Positions 1 to 17,321 of a stretch of 64,000 nucleotides of DNA are shown piece by piece. Every line of letters begins with the position of its first letter. The first letter of the stretch is position 1. The notes beneath the pieces are model-generated. The model was not told where the DNA came from. It searched no databases and was given only the letters and a program-made list of their open reading frames with translations. Source of the stretch: Bacteroides sp. (lineage in GTDB: Bacteria > Bacteroidota > Bacteroidia > Bacteroidales > Bacteroidaceae); contig JAFURM010000053.1 of assembly GCA_017471925.1 (NCBI GenBank), positions 19,754 through 83,753 of the forward strand. Direction: 5' to 3'. A program made the position numbers and the translations under genes.

Positions 1-100
1 AATCTCTCTGAAGATCTGGGATAATCACCTTCGTATCGTCTCCAAATAGTTCACGAAGACTATACTCATTACCACTTACAAAAGTATTTGTTCTATTCAT
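1..100 (-). CDS. DUF262-family protein, N-terminal fragment (runs off window)
   Basis: Only the first 33 codons lie in the window. They contain a KVIIPDLQRD stretch that matches the 'IP.yQR' signature at the start of DUF262 (ParB/GmrS-like nucleotide-binding) proteins. The ATG at 98-100 overlaps the 3' end of the preceding DUF262 gene by 8 bp, so the two are probably translationally coupled. This makes a tandem DUF262 pair at the end of the operon. Function is inferred only from the family and from its partner. The rest of the protein, including any DUF1524-type nuclease half, is outside the window. Confidence 0.7.
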   Translation of the reverse strand, partial: MNRTNTFVSGNEYSLRELFGDDTKVIIPDLQRD

Positions 101-1889
101 TTCTTTCAATATTGTAGTCATTCGCTAATATTTTAAGGATTATCATGGAAGACTCTTCAATATTTGCAGGCTCCCATTTCCCGTTGGCAAAGGAAGAAAT
201 GGTATGCAAGAGATTCCTGCTTTCGAAGCTCCTTTCATTGTTGAAGAACTTTTTCTTCTTCTCCTCAAAAGAGAGGTTTCCAAATTCAGAATTATTCCTG
301 CCATATAACAGAACTATATTACCTATACAATGTTCGCTGAACCTTGTTTTGTCTGTAAAGACCTTGTCAGAGTTGAGGAGCGTTGGATTTGCTGTCTCTG
401 CTTCTGACAACTCTGTCCCATCGCCTCTTACATAGACGCATCTGCCGTCATCCCTTATTTCAACATGATAGAATCGTGACTTTGGATAGATGTGTTCAAG
501 TGACTTGTTGGCCCAAATAGAAAAGTCGAATTTCACTCCTTTGCCACCATTCAGTTTGTTATACTCCTCTACATTTAACCTTAGCAATTGTTTGGTCAGC
601 AAGTCATCATATACATTATAGACATGAGACTTTGACAGGTCTTCTATCATTTTGCGGGCCCTCTCTTCCCGCTTATGAGCATTGTCTATTTTTCCATCTA
701 TTGCAGTAGGATCATTGGTAAAAGGTTCTGCTACTTCTATATGAGTGGCACCTAGAAGCCGCCATTTCGCATAGTATTCCAGTTTTTCTTTGGCCCGTTT
801 GTTCTCAATGAAGTACATGATTACATTGTATTTATCTTCAGCGTCTCCAGAAGAACCGATTAATGCACACTTCAGGTAGTTAAAGGAGTGTACGTCATTA
901 TATACATCTTCGAAATCTTTCTGAAGATCACGAAGTTCCTTAAAGACATTCTTTGCCTGTTTTATATCATTGTCAGGCAGAAGGTGCTTAAAATTACGGA
1001 ATGAGAAAGGACTTGTATGATTCTTCTTTTTATAATAATATTCTAAAAGTAATCCCATAGGTTTGTGGGTATTGAAAAAATCCTTCACATCTTCCCTGTT
1101 CCACCAATAAAGCCATTTATCCCACTCTCGGGCATACTTGCTTCTCAATGCATTTGTTTCCCATTCCATTGATGCGATCTCTTTCAAAATGATAAAACTA
1201 TCATCAAGAGTCCTTACTATAGGCAAATTCGCAATTTCTGCTGTTTGGGAAACTATATGAAGTATTTCTGCTTTCACAAGTTCCTCGTCATGCATCTTGG
1301 CTTTCTGTCCATTCATCATCGTAAATGTTCTTACTGCTTTCTCACGATCTACTACAATGTACAGCAAACTAATTTTATTCAACAAGAAGTTTGTGAACTT
1401 CCCTTTGTCCATGTTGTCTCGAATCAGTTGCTTTATCTGCTCTATTGCTTGTTTGAAATAGAAAATGTCTTGATTTAGATTCTCTGGGTCTTCATTCTGA
1501 TAGTCAAAACTTTCATTTTTCAAAGAATTCAAGAAAGACTTCGATTGCTCTCTGACAGCATAGTCCAAGTCTATTTCCATGTTTCCTGTGACATTCTTAC
1601 TGTCCAGACACCAGAGTAAAAGATATAGTGTAGTAGTACGTTGCTGCCCATCAATTAGGAGTATCTTGTCACCATCTTCAACCACAGTGACACCTTGAAG
1701 AAAAAACTGGTGTTCACTATTCGCGGTATAAGCGGCAATCAGACTGTCAATAAGAACTTCTACCGAAGTTTTTTCATCAGCAATTCTAACAGACCATTTA
1801 TAACCTCTTTGGTAATTGGGTATGACGAATGTCTTATGCCCATTGTCTGGATATAAATACTCTCTTAATGTTTTAAAACATGTTGACAT
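93..1889 (-). CDS. DUF262/DUF1524 (GmrSD-like) protein
   Basis: 598 aa. The N-terminal DUF262 domain has FVIPNYQRGYKW at about residues 21-32 and the hallmark DGQQRTTTLYLL at 80-91. The C-terminal part has HIYPKS (His466) followed by a GNIVLLYGRNN stretch at 523-533, the arrangement of the DUF1524 His-Asn nuclease-like domain. The two-domain layout matches GmrSD-type proteins, some of which are modification-dependent (type IV) restriction enzymes. It sits 45 bp after the exonuclease gene and overlaps a second DUF262 gene. Whether this protein cuts DNA, and which DNA, cannot be told from sequence alone; family membership is clear. Confidence 0.85.
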   Translation of the reverse strand: MSTCFKTLREYLYPDNGHKTFVIPNYQRGYKWSVRIADEKTSVEVLIDSLIAAYTANSEHQFFLQGVTVVEDGDKILLIDGQQRTTTLYLLLWCLDSKNVTGNMEIDLDYAVREQSKSFLNSLKNESFDYQNEDPENLNQDIFYFKQAIEQIKQLIRDNMDKGKFTNFLLNKISLLYIVVDREKAVRTFTMMNGQKAKMHDEELVKAEILHIVSQTAEIANLPIVRTLDDSFIILKEIASMEWETNALRSKYAREWDKWLYWWNREDVKDFFNTHKPMGLLLEYYYKKKNHTSPFSFRNFKHLLPDNDIKQAKNVFKELRDLQKDFEDVYNDVHSFNYLKCALIGSSGDAEDKYNVIMYFIENKRAKEKLEYYAKWRLLGATHIEVAEPFTNDPTAIDGKIDNAHKREERARKMIEDLSKSHVYNVYDDLLTKQLLRLNVEEYNKLNGGKGVKFDFSIWANKSLEHIYPKSRFYHVEIRDDGRCVYVRGDGTELSEAETANPTLLNSDKVFTDKTRFSEHCIGNIVLLYGRNNSEFGNLSFEEKKKKFFNNERSFESRNLLHTISSFANGKWEPANIEESSMIILKILANDYNIERNE

Positions 1890-1934
1890 ATTATAATTTG
1901 CATTTAATTAGTATCCACCGATTTATTATCAATT

Positions 1935-2429
1935 TTACAATATCTCCCTCGCAATCCAAGCACAAGCCTCAGCATCAGCCAGTGCATGGTGATGGTTCTC
2001 TAAATGATAGCCGCATCGGGTCGCAACGGTATGCAATTGGTGATTGGGAAGGCTTTTGCCAAAAGTCCGTCGGGCGGCTATACAGGTACAATGAAATTCA
2101 TAATCAGGATAATCCATACCGTAGCAACGAAAGACAGCCTTCAAGCAACTTTCATCGAAGGACTTGTTGTGAGCCACCAAAGGGAGTCCCTCTATCAAAG
2201 GTTCAATTTGTCCCCATACCGTAGGGAAAAGAGGGGCAGTTTCTGTATCACTTCGGGTGATGCCATGCACTTTAGTACACCAATAGCTGTAATAGTTCGG
2301 TTCGGGGTGGATGAGCGAATAGAACGAATCAACGATTTCTCCATCCCGAACAATTACCACACCCACACTGCACACACTGGTGCGTTCACGGTTGGCGGTT
2401 TCAAAATCGATTGCTGCAAAATCTCTCAT
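1935..2429 (-). CDS. DnaQ-like 3'-5' exonuclease
   Basis: 164 aa, a single compact exonuclease domain of the DEDDh (DnaQ/epsilon) family. Exo I is seen as AIDFET at residues 6-11, Exo II as AHNKSFDESCL, and Exo III as HHHALADAEA near the C-terminus, so all catalytic acidic residues and the His are present. It lacks the extra domain by which replicative epsilon binds polymerase, so it is a stand-alone nuclease. It is 5 bp from the RhuM-Doc gene upstream and 45 bp from the DUF262 gene downstream, in one transcription unit. A role in processing foreign or damaged nucleic acid is an inference from context. Confidence 0.85.
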   Translation of the reverse strand: MRDFAAIDFETANRERTSVCSVGVVIVRDGEIVDSFYSLIHPEPNYYSYWCTKVHGITRSDTETAPLFPTVWGQIEPLIEGLPLVAHNKSFDESCLKAVFRCYGMDYPDYEFHCTCIAARRTFGKSLPNHQLHTVATRCGYHLENHHHALADAEACAWIAREIL

Positions 2430-2434
2430 AACAT

Positions 2435-3430
2435 TTATTTGTTTTCCCTATTTATCAAATTCACTACAACCTTGACCATAATATCCTTTTCCTCGGTTCG
2501 GCTCTCGGCTATCATTAGTGTAAGTGCCACCAAAGTGTTGTCGGCAATACGTTTATGACCGTCTTCGGCGTACAAGATGCCGTTCTTTTCCATAAACCAA
2601 AGGAAGAGCATGGCTGCAATGCGCTTGTTGCCATCACTAAACGAGTGATTCTTTACGACGAGGTAAAGCAACATAGCCGCCTTTTCCTCAACAGACGGAT
2701 ATAGATCTTCGCCGGCAAATGTCTGGTATATCTGTCCGATACTGCTTTTAAAAGAGTCGTCCTTCTCATTAGCGAACCATTGACTGCCACCGAATTTCTC
2801 TTTCAGAGCGTTGATGGCCGCCATCGCGTTTTCGTATGTGGCTCTAAACGGTTCATTTGAGGTAGTCTTATCGATTGACAGGTTTTGATAGTCATAACGG
2901 TCGAGGGTATCGAGGGCATAGACGTAATCACTGATTACATTGAACAAACCGCTATATTCGTTGTTGGACACTTTTTCTTGAAGCGACAAGGCTCTCGACA
3001 TTAAATGGACAATGTTTTTCAGTTCATGATACCGTTCAAGTTTCAGATTTTGATTGACCACATAGCCTTTAATCAAGAAATCCTTCAAAACTTTGTTTGC
3101 CCACTGGCGGAAACGGGTGCCATTGACAGACTTTACTCGATAGCCAACGGAAATGATAACATCGAGAGAATAGAAAGGTACTGGTTTCTTGACTCCATTA
3201 ACGTGTAAATTTTGCACGTTATTCTCTCGGAGAAGTTCTCCTTCTTTAAATACGTTGATTACATGACGTCTTATATTAGACTCTTCTCTTGCAAATAATT
3301 TTGCCATCTGACTTGTAGTCAGCCACACTGTTTCCTCCTGCAACTTTACTTCCAACTGCGTATTCCCGTCTTCACTTGTATAGATAATGATAGAAGAGGT
3401 GTTATCGGATATGATTTCTTCTTTTCCCAT
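2435..3430 (-). CDS. RhuM-type protein fused to a Doc/Fic domain
   Basis: 331 aa. Residues about 15-130 are a RhuM (virulence-associated) domain, with TTSQMAKLFAREESNIRRH near the start and YSLDVIISVGYRV at 87-99, probably DNA-binding. The C-terminal third is a Fic/Doc domain with the active-site loop HSFSDGNKR at 262-270. The loop resembles that of Doc (GNKR/ANKR) rather than AMP-transferring Fic proteins (GNGR). Doc-type loops can phosphorylate EF-Tu, so a growth-arresting kinase activity is possible. The gene starts 1 bp after the WYL regulator stop and ends 5 bp before the exonuclease. No separate small antitoxin is visible; the RhuM half or the operon partners might restrain it. That last point is inference. 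Confidence 0.85.
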   Translation of the reverse strand: MGKEEIISDNTSSIIIYTSEDGNTQLEVKLQEETVWLTTSQMAKLFAREESNIRRHVINVFKEGELLRENNVQNLHVNGVKKPVPFYSLDVIISVGYRVKSVNGTRFRQWANKVLKDFLIKGYVVNQNLKLERYHELKNIVHLMSRALSLQEKVSNNEYSGLFNVISDYVYALDTLDRYDYQNLSIDKTTSNEPFRATYENAMAAINALKEKFGGSQWFANEKDDSFKSSIGQIYQTFAGEDLYPSVEEKAAMLLYLVVKNHSFSDGNKRIAAMLFLWFMEKNGILYAEDGHKRIADNTLVALTLMIAESRTEEKDIMVKVVVNLINRENK

Positions 3431-3431
3431 A

Positions 3432-4343
3432 CTATTTCAACTGATATTTATCACACATTCCTTTTATGTTACTTGCCATTTTGTCACGTAGCGATAGCGA
3501 TTCGAGGACTTCCACGTCTTCGCCATTCCGCAATATCTCTTGCAGGAAATCGTATGTCGGACAAAGTTTCAATACGAAAATGCTATACTGCTCGGTTCTT
3601 TCTATCTCCTGCTGGCTATGGTGCAGCGGCAATGAACGCCAGTAGTTAGCTTGCTTAGCTGACACTTTCAGTTTGATTTCTTCTACATCAAGCTCGTCAT
3701 CAATGATTACACCATAGTATTTTTCAAAATATTCCGATGGATGGAACGTGTCCGGCATCTTGAACCTTTTGTCAGTGAGCACCGATAGCGTATGAATTCG
3801 GTCGAGCGCATATATCAATACATCGCCATAATAAGGGCTGCGGGCTACCATGTACCAACGCTGTTTGAACAGCTTGACACAAAATGGCTCTACATCAAAG
3901 GTACTGCTCTTGTCACTCCAATAGCTTTGATAGGTCATGCGGATAGTCTGTTCCTTCTTCATCGCTTCGATAATGGAGGAAAGATAGGCCTGACCGGAGG
4001 GTATTTCTTCGAGCAGGATGCGATCCTTCATGTGCAGATTGTCTATCAGCAGGTTACTCACCGAAATGGAATTCAACAACCAGTTGCGAAGATTTCCATT
4101 TTTCAACTCTTCTTCATTGGCAATGTAATAGTGATACCCACCTTTGCGCTCGCAGTCGACAATCAGTCCAAACATCTCTTCAACAGCAATGCGCCATTTA
4201 TGAAATGTCCTGAGAGGAAGTTCTACACCCTCACTCAATTCGCTATCAAGCCACTTTTCGTTTATCGCTTCAAAAGTGATTCGCTTGGCGGCATAAATGG
4301 TTTCAACCAACCAGACATACTTATTCAAAAGATTCTTTGCCAT
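3432..4343 (-). CDS. WYL-domain transcriptional regulator
   Basis: 303 aa. The N-terminal part is a winged-helix-like region (LPLRTFHKWRIAVEEMFGLIVDCERKGG at about 40-68). The central WYL domain lies at about 125-210 and includes TIRMTYQSYWSD, KLFKQRWYMVARSP and IYALDRIHTL, which are its usual strands. A WCX-like C-terminal region follows. WYL proteins repress or switch on many phage-defence operons and sense nucleic-acid ligands. This is the first gene of the operon, with a TACCTTTG box 25 bp upstream of its start, and the next gene begins almost at its stop. It is therefore the likely local regulator of the whole cluster. Confidence 0.88.
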   Translation of the reverse strand: MAKNLLNKYVWLVETIYAAKRITFEAINEKWLDSELSEGVELPLRTFHKWRIAVEEMFGLIVDCERKGGYHYYIANEEELKNGNLRNWLLNSISVSNLLIDNLHMKDRILLEEIPSGQAYLSSIIEAMKKEQTIRMTYQSYWSDKSSTFDVEPFCVKLFKQRWYMVARSPYYGDVLIYALDRIHTLSVLTDKRFKMPDTFHPSEYFEKYYGVIIDDELDVEEIKLKVSAKQANYWRSLPLHHSQQEIERTEQYSIFVLKLCPTYDFLQEILRNGEDVEVLESLSLRDKMASNIKGMCDKYQLK

Positions 4344-4367: not shown

Positions 4368-4375
4368 CAAAGGTA
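4368..4375 (-). promoter_or_regulatory. -7 promoter box of the WYL-DUF262 operon
   Basis: TACCTTTG on the minus strand matches the Bacteroides -7 consensus TAnnTTTG, 25 bp before the WYL gene. No good -33 TTTG is seen at the expected distance. It is the only plausible promoter for the five-gene operon. Confidence 0.6.
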
Positions 4376-4449
4376 ACAAAAAGATGTGCAGGATGAGGGC
4401 ACAGGATGGGAAATATAGTTGATTTTGACGAGATAGGTGTAGCAAAATA

Positions 4450-9260: not shown

Positions 9261-11693
9261 TTATACATTTGCAATACTCATGATGTCGGCAAAGACTCCG
9301 GCAGCCGTCACGTCGGCTCCTGCACCATAGCCCTGAATCATCATCGGGTATTTGTTATAACGTTCAGTTGTCAGCAGAATGATGTTGTTGCTGCCTTCCA
9401 GACCATAGAAGGGATGGCGGGCATCCACTTCCTGCAGCCCCACGGTGCCTTTCCCCTCTTCCAGGCGAGCCACAAAGCGCCAATGCTTGTTCTCGGCCTC
9501 AAGTACCTTGCGACGGGCTTCGAAGTCGGCATCCAGCCCGGGAATACGCTCCCAAAACTCTTCCAACGAGCCTTGGAAGAAGGCATCGGGCACAAAGAGA
9601 TGTTTCTCCACATCGCTCTGTTCCAGACGATAGCCGGCTTCACGGGCCAGGATGACCAGTTTGCGAATAACGTCTTTCCCGCTGAGGTCTATGCGCGGAT
9701 CTGGCTCGGAGTAGCCCTCCTCCTTGGCCATGCGGATAGTCTGGCTGAAGGGGATGTCGGCACTGATTTTGTTGAAGATGAAGTTCAGCGTACCGCTCAG
9801 CACGGCCTCAATCTTCAGAATCTTGTCACCGCTGTGGATAAGGTCGTTGATGGTGTTGATGATGGGCAGTCCGGCACCCACATTGGTCTCGAAGAGGAAC
9901 TTCACACCGCGTTGGCGGGCAATCTGCTTCAGTTCACGGTAGTTGTCATATGCGGACGAAGCGGCAATCTTGTTGGCAGCCACCACCGAAACGTTGTGGT
10001 TCAGCAAATCCTTATAGAGTGCAGCCACGTCGGCACTGGCCGTACAATCCACGAAGACCGAGTTGAAAATGTTCATGCCGATGATTTCGTCGCGCAGCGT
10101 CTCCACCGTGTTGGGCATTCCTTCCTTGTCCAACAGTTCCTTGTACTGGCTCAGGTTGATGCCTTCGCGTTTGAAGAGGGCCTTGCGTGTGTTGGCAATG
10201 CCCACCACGTTCAGCCGCAGGCCATTCTCCTGCATCAGTTTCTGGCGTTGGCTGTGAATCTGTTCTATCAGGCTGCCTCCCACAGTGCCCACTCCGCAGA
10301 GGAAGATGTTGAGCACCTGATATTCGGAGAGGAAGAAGGAGTCGTGAATGACGTTGAGCGACTTGCGCAGCGATTTGCTGTCAATGACAAAGGAAATGTT
10401 GGTCTCCGACGCACCCTGCGCACAGGCTATGACGTTGATGCCGTTCCGTCCCAGCGTGCCGAAGAGTTTGCCGGCAATGCCGGGCGTGTGTTTCATGTTT
10501 TCACCAACGATGGCCACTGTGGCCAAATCTTTCTCGGCCGTGATGGGAGAGATTTCACCCATCTCTATCTCCTTGGCAAACTCTTCATTCAGCACATTGC
10601 AGGCCAGGTCGGCATCGGCATTGCGCACACCGATGGAGGTGGAGTTCTCAGAGGAGGCCTGTGACACAAGGAAGACGCTGATGCCGTTCTGTGCCAAGGC
10701 ACGGAAGATGCGGTAGTTCACACCGATGACACCCACCATACCCAAACCTTGCACCGTAATCAGACTGGTGTCGTTGATGGAGGAAATTCCCTTGATGGCC
10801 TTGCTTTGGGGGTCGGAGACTTCCTGTTTGATTATGGTGCCGGGAGCCTCGGGATTGAACGTGTTCTTGATGAGAATGGGAATGTTCTTGTGACACACAG
10901 GATAGATGGTAGGAGGATAGACCACCTTGGCACCGAAGTTGCACAGTTCCGTAGCCTCCACATAGCTCAGTTCGCTGATGGTATAGGCAGTGGAGATGAC
11001 CCTGGGGTCAGCCGTCATGAAGCCGTCCACATCGGTCCATATCTCCAGCACGTCGGCATCCAGAGCCGCGGCCAGGATGGCTGCCGTATAGTCCGAACCG
11101 CCACGTCCCAGGTTGGTCACCTGACCGGTCACCTTGTCCGTAGAGATGAAGCCCGGTACGAGGGAACGCCTCGGCATGGAGGCAAAGGTTTCGCGAATCA
11201 GTCGCCCAGTCAGTTCGGCATCGAGCACATGCTTGGCATGTTTCTTTTCGGTCTTGACGAACTGGCGCGAATCAAACCATTCGGCTCCCGTCAGACTGGC
11301 TGCAATAATGGACGACAGGCGTTCGCCATAGCTGACGATGGCATCGCTCGTCTTCTGTGACAGGTCTTTGATGAGGTAGACACCCTGGAAGATGTCTTTC
11401 AGTTCATTGAGCAGTTCGCCCACCCTGCGGAGCAGTTCCTGCTGTTCCGCTCCGGCCGGGATGACCTCCTTCACCATCTCTACGTGGCGATACACAATCT
11501 CGCGGAACTCGTTTTCATAGGCCGCATCACCGGCCGCAGCCATCTTGGAGGTGTTGATCAGTTTGTCGGTGATACCACCCAGGGCCGACACAACGACGAT
11601 GACCGGTTCTTTCACGGCTTCCACAATGCGTTTCACGCTTAATATGCTGTTGGCGGTGCCTACTGACGTTCCGCCGAATTTCAATACTTTCAT
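9261..11693 (-). CDS. thrA: Bifunctional aspartokinase / homoserine dehydrogenase
   Basis: 810 aa. The N-terminal aspartokinase has the opening KFGGTSVG (residues 4-11). Two ACT-type regulatory segments follow at about 310-460, including ITVQGLGMVGVIGV and VAIVGENMKHTPGIAGKLF. The C-terminal homoserine dehydrogenase begins at about 465 with the NAD-binding FLCGVGTVGGSLIEQI and contains AANKIAASS and the substrate-site ILKIEAVLSGTLNFIFN. It commits aspartate to threonine and methionine. First structural gene of the thr operon; a Thr-rich leader ORF and a terminator lie in the 220 bp upstream, so attenuation by charged tRNA-Thr is likely, with ACT-domain feedback by threonine. Confidence 0.96.
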   Translation of the reverse strand: MKVLKFGGTSVGTANSILSVKRIVEAVKEPVIVVVSALGGITDKLINTSKMAAAGDAAYENEFREIVYRHVEMVKEVIPAGAEQQELLRRVGELLNELKDIFQGVYLIKDLSQKTSDAIVSYGERLSSIIAASLTGAEWFDSRQFVKTEKKHAKHVLDAELTGRLIRETFASMPRRSLVPGFISTDKVTGQVTNLGRGGSDYTAAILAAALDADVLEIWTDVDGFMTADPRVISTAYTISELSYVEATELCNFGAKVVYPPTIYPVCHKNIPILIKNTFNPEAPGTIIKQEVSDPQSKAIKGISSINDTSLITVQGLGMVGVIGVNYRIFRALAQNGISVFLVSQASSENSTSIGVRNADADLACNVLNEEFAKEIEMGEISPITAEKDLATVAIVGENMKHTPGIAGKLFGTLGRNGINVIACAQGASETNISFVIDSKSLRKSLNVIHDSFFLSEYQVLNIFLCGVGTVGGSLIEQIHSQRQKLMQENGLRLNVVGIANTRKALFKREGINLSQYKELLDKEGMPNTVETLRDEIIGMNIFNSVFVDCTASADVAALYKDLLNHNVSVVAANKIAASSAYDNYRELKQIARQRGVKFLFETNVGAGLPIINTINDLIHSGDKILKIEAVLSGTLNFIFNKISADIPFSQTIRMAKEEGYSEPDPRIDLSGKDVIRKLVILAREAGYRLEQSDVEKHLFVPDAFFQGSLEEFWERIPGLDADFEARRKVLEAENKHWRFVARLEEGKGTVGLQEVDARHPFYGLEGSNNIILLTTERYNKYPMMIQGYGAGADVTAAGVFADIMSIANV

Positions 11694-15626: not shown

Positions 15627-17321
15627 TCAGAAGGCGACAACTTCAAAGAAGTAGTCAGAATCTCTGTTGAAGTGTCCGGCTTCGAAACGGGTGTCGAAAG
15701 TCATGGAGGAGTGGGTGAGCCGACCCTGATGAGTGCCCCAACGGACAATGTAGCCGGTGGCTTCGGGCACAGCATCCCACGTCAGCTCAAAGCGGCGGGT
15801 ATCCCGAGCATTGCGGGTCACCTGCAGACCGGTGGCCACGACATCAAGGCGTTTGTCTCCGCCAAAGACGCGCAGGTCATAGAGCGAGAACTTGCCGTCG
15901 GCAATGCTCTCCTTGTTGGTGACGCGCAGGTAGCGGGCCTCTATCGGGCGCTCCAGCAGGTGCAGGCGATGAGGGGCATCCACCGTATTGGCTGACATGT
16001 CGGCCACGGTCTGCCACTGTCGGCCGTCGGCCGAAGCTTCCACCACGTAGCGATAGACCACATCGCCGTGAGGAGCCCACACCTGAAAGTCCTGGTCGGC
16101 CAGGTTCACCTGCACGGCTCTCACCACCTCTGCACGGCCCAGGTCCAGCATGAACCATTCGCCGACCTCACCGCTGGCTGCGCTCCACCAGGTCTCCACC
16201 TGTTCGTCAGCGGCCAATTCGGGTGCATAGCCCTCCAGCGAAGAAGAGGCCGTGGCCTGCTTGTGACGCGAAAGCAGGTTGTAGCCCGTCAGATGCCAGT
16301 CGTGCCGTTCGTCCACCTTGGCAGTGGGGATTTCAAAGGGGAAGTCGGCAAAATCCTGATGGGCATACATGCCATATTCATCGGAAATGGTAACAGGGAA
16401 AAGGCCGATACGCCGTTCAAACCAATGGCGTACGGAGATGCGCATGGTAGCCACGTGCCACAGGTTGCCATACTTGTCGCGGAAGGTATCGCCATGACCG
16501 GCGCCGCCGATGAATCCGCCCGTCTTGATGGAGAAGGGACTCTCTTCGGCATAGGTGTAGGGTCCCAGGGGATTGTCGGCCACGTAATAGCCGTCGCCAT
16601 AGGTGCGGAACTGGGTGCCGGGAGCGGCATATTGCAGGTAATACTTTCCCTTGTGTTTCAGCACGGCGGGCCCTTCGTTCCATCCGGCCTTGTCGTCGTC
16701 GTTCCACTCGCCGGGCACCTCCCAGCCATACTGCTTATAGTTGTGTTCCACGATAACCACCGGCTCGCCCAAGGGGGCAAAGCCATCCTCCGGGTCCACC
16801 TCCACCCCGACAATGGGATCCACGTCGTGGCATCCCCAGAAGAAATAGACGCGTCCGTCATCATCCTTGAAGAAGGCGGGGTCGTGCTGTCCCGGAAGGG
16901 TGAACTTGGTGGGCACCTCCACCCACTCATCGCGTTCGGGATGGGCATTTCTGAAGAATCGGGTGAGTCTGCCGTCGCTGGAGGCCGTGAAGTAGAGTTC
17001 GCCTTTGTACTCCATGATGGTCGGTGCATAATCCATGATGATGGGGATGGTGTGACAAGGGATATAGTCCCACCGGGCCAGGTTTTCCGAGCGCCAATAG
17101 CCGCCCGACTTGGAAGCAAACAGGTAGTAGGCATCCTTAAAATAGATGCACACGGGGTCGGCCGCCTCGCGTCGCGACATTTCATCGGGCTGGAAACGAT
17201 AGTTCAGTTCCAGGGGATTGCAGATGATGAGTTTCTCCTCTTGTTGAGGTAGCGGGGCGGAACAGGCCGTTGCCAGCATTGTGCCGACAAGCCCCATGAG
17301 CCATGCGGTTGTTTTCTTCAT
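15627..17321 (-). CDS. GH43-type glycosidase lipoprotein with discoidin and FN3-like modules
   Basis: 564 aa. The lipobox ATAC (Cys20) predicts a lipoprotein. Residues about 50-345 are a five-bladed GH43-like fold: the catalytic base is probably Asp55 in EAADPVCIY, with further blade motifs DYAPTIMEYKGELYF, GQHDPAFFKDDDGRVYFFWG and WNEGPAVLKHKGKYYLQY. Residues about 355-490 are an F5/8 type C (discoidin) sugar-binding domain (AADEQVETWWSA.., WFMLDLGRAEVVRAVQVN). A fibronectin-III-like module ends the protein. It probably removes arabinose, xylose or galactose side units. A promoter and a 22-bp tandem repeat array lie upstream. Confidence 0.85.
   Translation of the reverse strand: MKKTTAWLMGLVGTMLATACSAPLPQQEEKLIICNPLELNYRFQPDEMSRREAADPVCIYFKDAYYLFASKSGGYWRSENLARWDYIPCHTIPIIMDYAPTIMEYKGELYFTASSDGRLTRFFRNAHPERDEWVEVPTKFTLPGQHDPAFFKDDDGRVYFFWGCHDVDPIVGVEVDPEDGFAPLGEPVVIVEHNYKQYGWEVPGEWNDDDKAGWNEGPAVLKHKGKYYLQYAAPGTQFRTYGDGYYVADNPLGPYTYAEESPFSIKTGGFIGGAGHGDTFRDKYGNLWHVATMRISVRHWFERRIGLFPVTISDEYGMYAHQDFADFPFEIPTAKVDERHDWHLTGYNLLSRHKQATASSSLEGYAPELAADEQVETWWSAASGEVGEWFMLDLGRAEVVRAVQVNLADQDFQVWAPHGDVVYRYVVEASADGRQWQTVADMSANTVDAPHRLHLLERPIEARYLRVTNKESIADGKFSLYDLRVFGGDKRLDVVATGLQVTRNARDTRRFELTWDAVPEATGYIVRWGTHQGRLTHSSMTFDTRFEAGHFNRDSDYFFEVVAF

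Follow-up and report, generated by a model that had tools for sequence, protein, structure and literature searches.

We found that a 64,000-nucleotide stretch of Bacteroides sp. DNA (hereafter, the window; positions 19754-83753 of its 83,753-bp contig) carries at its edge an operon in which genes for a WYL-domain regulator, a RhuM-Fic protein, and a DnaQ-like exonuclease precede two adjacent DUF262 genes (genes 4 and 5). These families recur together more than chance allows and form one accessory operon. Its effector is ordinary, a GrwAB-like pair; what is new is the setting, with a WYL-DnaQ head, swapped cargo, and an operator in common with a nearby operon of orf173 and the RtcB ligase gene. 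With moderate confidence, we favor the reading that this is a restriction operon of the GrwAB/TgvAB kind that depends on DNA modification, is regulated by WYL, and shares its regulation with an operon for RNA repair, and its predicted role is likely to be phage defense.

All five genes lie in a row on the minus strand, spaced by 1, 5, 45, and -8 bp, as an earlier note on this DNA had stated; the -8 overlap presumes that gene 5 starts at its second in-frame ATG (window 100), as the first ATG (window 121) gives -29. The AT-richness described there was also confirmed, with a GC content per kb of 36-45% over window 1-4000 versus 47-64% over the other 60 kb. Pfam upheld the family names given (WYL, RhuM/Doc, DnaQ, DUF262, and DUF262), with the architectures WYL+WCX, RhuM+Fic, RNase_T, GmrSD_N+GmrSD_C, and GmrSD_N. 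The features are as follows:

4368..4403, minus strand: predicted composite operator-promoter, a 19-bp inverted repeat TGTGC-N9-GCACA, 9 bp, and the -7 box TACCTTTG, 24 bp before the WYL start codon.
3432..4343, minus strand: WYL-domain transcription regulator, 303 amino acids (aa); WYL at 120-187 (PF13280, E 2.9e-15), WCX at 220-296 (PF25583, E 2.1e-9).
2435..3430, minus strand: RhuM-Fic protein, 331 aa; Pfam RhuM E 4.4e-19, Fic E 6.4e-12, PADLOC PDC-S23 E 1.4e-133.
1935..2429, minus strand: DnaQ-like DEDDh 3'-5' exonuclease, 164 aa; Pfam RNase_T E 1.7e-19.
93..1889, minus strand: gene 4, DUF262+DUF1524 (GmrSD_N+GmrSD_C), putative GrwA-like subunit, 598 aa, from Pfam and motifs.
1..100, minus strand: gene 5, 5' part of the second DUF262 gene, putative GrwB-like subunit (763 aa from window 121); GmrSD_N E 1.2e-21; remainder at L002:7830-10121.

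The window edge splits the operon, and the remainder lies beyond it on the same contig. There, a PAD_porph (agmatine-deiminase-like) gene of 277 aa begins 16 bp past gene 5 (763 aa), and about 1 kb beyond it lies a second operon composed of orf173 (173 aa; no match in Pfam) and RtcB (Pfam E 3.9e-56). This sixth gene, the RtcB operon, and the common operator were beyond the view of the earlier note. A DUF262 family search of the same assembly (89% complete) detected just genes 4 and 5. This operon is accessory, which fits with horizontal transfer.

The earlier note had placed the operon behind a single promoter box. This box, TACCTTTG, is indeed present at window 4368-4375; however, it is weak evidence when taken alone because the window contains 41 copies of TAnnTTTG (18.1 expected), in line with a Bacteroidetes -7 promoter box, and we rejected the box alone as the mark of a special operon. 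The sequences upstream of WYL genes yielded the motif TRTGY-N9-RCAYA, commonly located 9 bp before TAnnTTTG. A search at this fixed spacing (TRTGY-N9-RCAYA-N9-TAnnTTTG, the last box base being G, A, or T) in 2,498,128 bases of loci gave 62 distinct matches, and none was obtained in ten block shuffles. The open reading frame (ORF) behind the match was WYL in 24 cases, AAA ATPase in 10, orf173 in 4, RtcB in 1, DnaQ in 1, and another ORF in 19, with no ORF behind 3; the matches before genes other than WYL had played no part in defining the motif. All 62 matches were located in WYL loci (59 with a WYL match above 300 bits and 3, L068, L071, and L072, with fragmentary WYL ORFs), and none was found in 81 loci without WYL (901,484 bases, some of these control loci overlapping each other).

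Within the 64-kb window, the operator occurs once, with no occurrence in 100 dinucleotide shuffles. We then scanned the whole contig with a weight matrix built from 60 operator matches of other genomes only. The site before orf173 (contig 15767-15802) scored 38.3 bits and the one before WYL (window 4368-4403) 37.8 bits, while the third best reached 6.0 bits. As there are two strong sites, one per operon, the WYL and orf173-RtcB operons very probably share a regulator. The first gene thus has the composition of a WYL defense regulator with an operator, combining WYL and WCX domains with a specific repeat at its promoter, to which binding is only predicted. No mention of the operon or the operator was found among the listed titles and abstracts of open-licence papers.

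Next, we analyzed the DUF262 pair. Gene 4 carries the motifs QR (residues 27-28), DGQQR (80-84), and FTMMN (189-193), followed by H466, N524, and N533; across 12 aligned first subunits, D80-R84, N524, and N533 were invariant and H466 was kept in at least 90%. Gene 5 carries QR (38-39) and DGQQR (98-102), while the motif check found VVINTTGE in place of the expected FxxxN, and Pfam gave no match to DUF1524. The pair therefore has the makeup of a GrwAB-type system: adjacent genes, the first with DUF262 and DUF1524 and the second with DUF262 but not DUF1524. Neither gene matched the full PADLOC HEC-06 profile, which covered residues 19-154 of gene 4 (E 2.2e-16) and 9-110 of gene 5 (E 5.2e-10), and the SspE profile matched only partial stretches of both. 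Among solved structures, the matches at E<=0.01 were SspE and entries named DUF262 domain-containing protein.

GrwAB is described as a GmrSD-like type IV system of WASA Vibrio cholerae (PMC12137116). According to that paper, GrwA contains DUF262 and DUF1524 with R81, H431, N521, and N530, while GrwB contains DUF262 with R86 and unknown domains; both proteins are needed, and their targets are phage groups with 7-deazaguanine or sugar-modified cytosine. Genes 4 and 5 share with GrwAB the adjacent arrangement, the identical order, and a second protein composed of DUF262 and a long unknown region. The arginine of DGQQR is at position 84 in gene 4 as compared to 81 in GrwA, and at 102 in gene 5 as compared to 86 in GrwB. 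The His-Me residues H466, N524, and N533 of gene 4 correspond to H431, N521, and N530 of GrwA, with a spacing of 9 between the two asparagines in both. Thus, from their architecture, order, and catalytic motifs, genes 4 and 5 are predicted to be a GrwAB-type pair, a known kind of effector.

To place the pair in a wider setting, we compared a first-subunit profile with 393 Bacteroidales genomes and examined the surroundings of all 34 matches of at least 200 bits (own included). A second DUF262 gene adjoined the first in 30 of them. As for the other four, the contig end falls within the first gene in L153 and L168; in G162 (L006), only 437 bp of contig remain behind it, and no second DUF262 gene was seen there; and L162 has a 304-aa first-subunit gene without a partner. 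WYL was located upstream, directly or past DnaQ (in the window, also past RhuM-Fic), in six loci (G000, G151, G315, G098, G200, and G114) and elsewhere in the examined stretch in five more (L150, L151, L160, L165, and L076, the last with a WYL-DnaQ pair about 3.5 kb upstream). DnaQ directly preceded the first subunit in four (G000, G151, G162, and G200). For scale, 244 genomes of a few Mb each contain 56 WYL relatives (E<=1e-40, own included); this cut is stricter than that of the DUF262-locus count, so the excess of WYL beside DUF262 is rough, though large, and it supports the association of the two. WYL was absent from the examined stretch of the remaining 23 of the 34 loci. The pair being of GrwAB type and so often apart from WYL, the earlier note's proposal of an undescribed five-gene system was not supported.

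Subsequently, we examined 62 WYL loci, obtained by scanning a collection of species genomes with two peptide patterns derived from an alignment of two WYL sequences; this pattern-based scan is not exhaustive, and many loci end at contig ends. At least one operator was present in 34 loci and at least two in 9. Genes were called mechanically, and in one case an antisense ORF was preferred to DnaQ in the window; the families were counted on all ORFs within 10 kb of WYL on the same strand. DnaQ directly followed WYL in 23 loci, and the families near WYL were AAA ATPase (17), the first and second DUF262 subunits (11 and 9), RtcB (8), RhuM-Fic (5), and deiminase (1). WYL followed by both DUF262 subunits was found in seven by the automated count, which missed L015 because the second-subunit model gives no match to its second DUF262 gene. 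The genes are therefore not the fixed set that had been supposed, as RhuM-Fic lies near WYL in only 5 of the 62 loci and DnaQ comes directly after it in 23; what stands of the claim of one functional unit is a single accessory operon of families that recur beyond chance.

We found the order WYL-DnaQ-DUF262-DUF262 without RhuM in L012, L014, L015, L048, L052, L010 (a Prevotella plasmid), L075 (G151), and L159 (G200). As compared to the window, WYL is 72-76% and DnaQ 77-84% identical in L012, L014, and L015, while their first DUF262 subunits are 27-28% identical and the second subunits 27% (L012 and L014). Because WYL and DnaQ stay close while the DUF262 proteins diverge, the cargo is swapped. 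The closest DUF262 relatives among 26 compared loci, L053 and L142 (first subunit 51-52%, second 42-53%), lie in different settings, with WYL 47% identical or absent. Behind its DUF262 pair, L012 keeps the deiminase (61%), orf173 (86%), and RtcB (85%); L011 has other genes between DnaQ and orf173-RtcB, and L013 consists of WYL, one 263-aa gene, and RtcB. The full-length WYL relatives at 72-81% identity come from metagenome-assembled genomes (MAGs) labeled Parabacteroides, Bacteroidaceae, Bacteroidales, and Prevotella, some of which could belong to the same genus as the window; the best in-genus match among 60 genomes, own excluded, was 52%.

We also examined the genomic site. The flanking genes MscS and CBAH lie on one contig in two other genomes of the 60 (genus, own included), about 6 and 21 kb apart as compared to about 11 kb in the own genome, and both of these genus mates carry unrelated genes between them. 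No match to the operon families was found in 16 stretches (14 genomes) around these flanks, and we rejected the MscS-CBAH site as a fixed home of the operon.

These data bear on a different explanation, a defense-island pile-up in which independent RhuM-Fic, GrwAB-like, and deiminase modules sit behind a WYL-DnaQ promoter and borrow its transcription with no joint mechanism. The divergence of the DUF262 proteins behind conserved WYL and DnaQ, the closest DUF262 relatives in other settings, the rarity of RhuM, and the unrelated genes in the two genus mates would all fit it. However, WYL, DnaQ, and the DUF262 pair recur jointly in MAGs that carry names, on a plasmid, and in genomes from several families, the operon is tight, and among the examined loci the operator is confined to those with WYL. 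We therefore regard such a pile-up as unlikely.

Other cargo of WYL loci was noted in passing. An AAA ATPase of about 550 aa with IetA-like similarity (tested in L025) accounts for the 17 loci counted above (e.g., L024-L026, L028-L030, L036, L037, L048, L052, and L053); the cluster C2 of this length had been considered as Ro60/TROVE, which was rejected on the tested member. The islands L016, L025, and L028 (tested) contain a PD-(D/E)XK nuclease (PDC-S26), a DrmC-like PLD protein, DUF6557 proteins, and an FtsZ/tubulin-like protein, with related genes in L017, L023, L027, L029, and L037. WYL ORFs with C-terminal extensions were found in L018 (419 aa, maybe to the contig end), L019 (525 aa), and L020 (493 aa). 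The 263-268-aa proteins beside WYL in L013, L016, and L022 cluster by similarity with these extended ORFs, which suggests a fusion of WYL to the domain of such neighbors.

We next turned to RtcB. Of 244 genomes (own included), 3 contain its subfamily (E<=1e-100), yet 8 of the 62 WYL loci have it no more than 10 kb from WYL, which further supports co-occurrence. Among the 15 in-genus WYL regions examined (of 17 non-own matches), RtcB was found in two, L126 and L127, where RtcB-orf173 is divergent from WYL-DnaQ and DUF262 is absent. WYL, DnaQ, and the DUF262 pair together occur in ten loci (the window, L010, L012, L014, L015, L026, L048, L052, L075, and L159), and RtcB was not seen in the examined stretch of eight of them. 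A reading centered on RtcB would take WYL-DnaQ-orf173-RtcB as an RNA-damage response like Rtc operons, triggered by broken RNA rather than by phage as such, with the DUF262 pair and RhuM-Fic as passengers. L126 and L127, and in part L011 and L013, speak for it, as do the operators before orf173 and RtcB, the HAD_SAK RNA-repair domain in L012, and its 69% relative in L015. The lack of RtcB in the eight loci argues against it, as does the finding that DUF262 pairs adjoin WYL more often than the density of WYL in genomes suggests, and we consider this response improbable.

The deiminase-like gene was found in mixed settings across 12 examined regions. As its relatives (E<=1e-20) are present in 44 of 393 genomes, own included, we rejected it as specific to DUF262 pairs. 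In L190-L201, a short PAD_porph family of about 280 aa was observed, with the GHADG and LHC motifs kept in the copy beside the window; it lies beside a 212-224-aa gene in L191-L195, and longer forms of 513-605 aa occur in L195-L197. L197 (G422:C31, 1595-9997) has the order DUF262-DUF262-AbiEii-DUF3800-unknown-deiminase long form, with no WYL match within 17 kb. In L125 (G295, own genus; 3-3123), WYL precedes a 247-aa gene, a protein of 421 aa whose match to SMEK_N is weak and does not reach the Pfam cut-off, and, where the contig ends, the beginning of a PAD_porph gene; this is another WYL operon with a deiminase and different cargo.

The RhuM-Fic protein retains the intact Fic/Doc core motif HSFSDGNKR at residue 262 and falls in the PADLOC candidate family PDC-S23, while DnaQ shows DFET at 8, FDE at 91, and HALADA at 148. 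L011, with the closest WYL (81%), holds a RhuM-Fic remnant between WYL and DnaQ (10914-11336), comprising the beginning and the C-terminal portion of the protein, in frame with a partial DnaQ, and no DUF262 is present in the locus. In this closest relative, the RhuM gene was lost in place, and owing to the remnant the order WYL-RhuM-DnaQ is also known outside the window. One new five-component system, as the earlier note proposed, in which all five genes would be needed, is very unlikely: although the operon is single with very short gaps, L011 has the remnant at the same place, and one of the 62 loci, L026, has all five families (WYL-DnaQ-RhuM/Fic-DnaB-AAA-DUF262-DUF262), no locus of the 62 keeps the window order, and among ten further loci that combine WYL with a DUF262 pair (L010, L012, L014, L015, L026, L048, L052, L053, L064, and L075), RhuM-Fic occurs in L026 only, with two extra genes in between and an ORF of just 177 aa.

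In the favored restriction reading, genes 4 and 5 would form a two-protein GmrSD-family enzyme, with the two DUF262 domains recognizing modified phage DNA together with NTP and the His-Me nuclease of gene 4 cleaving this DNA, as the architecture and motifs common with GrwAB suggest. DnaQ may trim the nucleic-acid ends left by the attack, and RhuM-Fic would be an optional but recurring toxin-like companion. A WYL dimer is predicted to bind the 19-bp repeat at two promoters, before WYL and before orf173-RtcB, where the computed sites lie. Single-stranded DNA (ssDNA) and RNA ends are candidate WYL signals (PMC9503650 and PMC11804915), and by analogy to other WYL proteins the signal here is likely to be ssDNA or cleaved RNA from infection. 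RtcB could rejoin broken RNA in the surviving cell.

The regulator itself is more likely to activate than to repress. The 8-base box ending at -7 would place the repeat at about -42 to -24, with its center at -33. Because the repeat covers the -33 region and keeps a constant distance of 9 bp to the -7 box, we prefer activation similar to that by SiwR and PafBC over repression as by BrxR and CapW. SiwR is described as a homodimeric WYL activator with a 19-bp imperfect palindrome between -35 and -10 (PMC10693628), and the ssDNA-activated PafBC, which binds only together with RNA polymerase, places itself between promoter DNA and the sigma domain normally in contact with -35 (PMC11804915). SiwR shares with the window element a 19-bp palindromic site, while both systems are mycobacterial and differ in regulon content and from the TAnnTTTG promoter type found here. 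BrxR and CapW are WYL repressors that precede defense systems and bind inverted repeats (PMC9122601 and PMC9122588); the BrxR site is reported downstream of the promoter and the CapW site over -10, in contrast to the window repeat upstream of the -7 box. In Bacteroides fragilis, a TTTG element is described at -33, which according to the same source could not be found in Flavobacterium johnsoniae (PMC7366714). No conserved TTTG was present around -33 in the 62 operator matches; as it was not found in F. johnsoniae either, this absence is weak evidence for an activator.

Several points weigh against the restriction reading. The WYL-upstream matches helped to define the operator pattern and so are not independent evidence, the strict operator is absent in 28 of the 62 WYL loci, and none was found at DUF262 pairs beside more distant WYL proteins (L144, L153, L159, and L167). 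The occurrence of RtcB and DnaQ beside WYL in L126 and L127, where DUF262 is absent, and the lack of RtcB in the eight loci count here too, DnaQ lies apart from WYL and DUF262 in several regions, and neither the deiminase-like gene nor orf173 could be given a role. Moreover, co-localization can arise from defense-island clustering, and the likeness to GrwAB comes from its published residues and architecture.

A broader proposal, which we put forward tentatively, is an immune regulon in which one WYL sensor, acting through one operator, switches on both GrwAB-like restriction and the RtcB RNA ligase, while the WYL-DnaQ head and its operator serve as a socket for exchangeable effectors across Bacteroidales. 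The cell would destroy modified phage DNA while mending RNA damaged by infection or by attached toxins. Effectors that could plug into the socket are DUF262 pairs, RhuM-Fic, the IetA-like AAA ATPase, PD-(D/E)XK or PLD nucleases, and FtsZ-like proteins. The favored restriction reading would assign a defined control circuit to GrwAB-type restriction in Bacteroidales, and its operator is a concrete DNA motif open to immediate testing. If one sensor does couple DNA restriction and RNA ligation, this would offer a direct route to the role of bacterial RtcB in phage defense and to the signal sensed by WYL proteins in Bacteroidota.

Finally, we compared the operon with known systems. Unlike GrwAB, the pair lies behind WYL, RhuM-Fic, and DnaQ in one operon and is followed by a deiminase-like gene, and the operator is also found before orf173-RtcB. 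TgvAB, on VPI-2 of V. cholerae (PMC11411939), likewise consists of two DUF262 genes, one with DUF1524, and forms a two-gene operon within another defense operon; in contrast to genes 4 and 5, its nuclease subunit is TgvB, while TgvA is described as resembling GmrSD in the N-terminal DUF262 only. GrwB and TgvA are called distinct in PMC12137116. BrxU, SspE, and single-chain GmrSD resemble gene 4 in combining DUF262 and DUF1524 in one chain; they are described as single proteins, whereas here a second DUF262 protein adjoins in 30 of the 34 relatives. Last, RtcR-RtcBA, a stress-controlled RtcB ligase operon (PMC7790460), would resemble orf173-RtcB in placing RtcB under stress-type control; its regulator is the CARF-type RtcR, while here the predicted regulator is WYL, with the operator also before a restriction operon.

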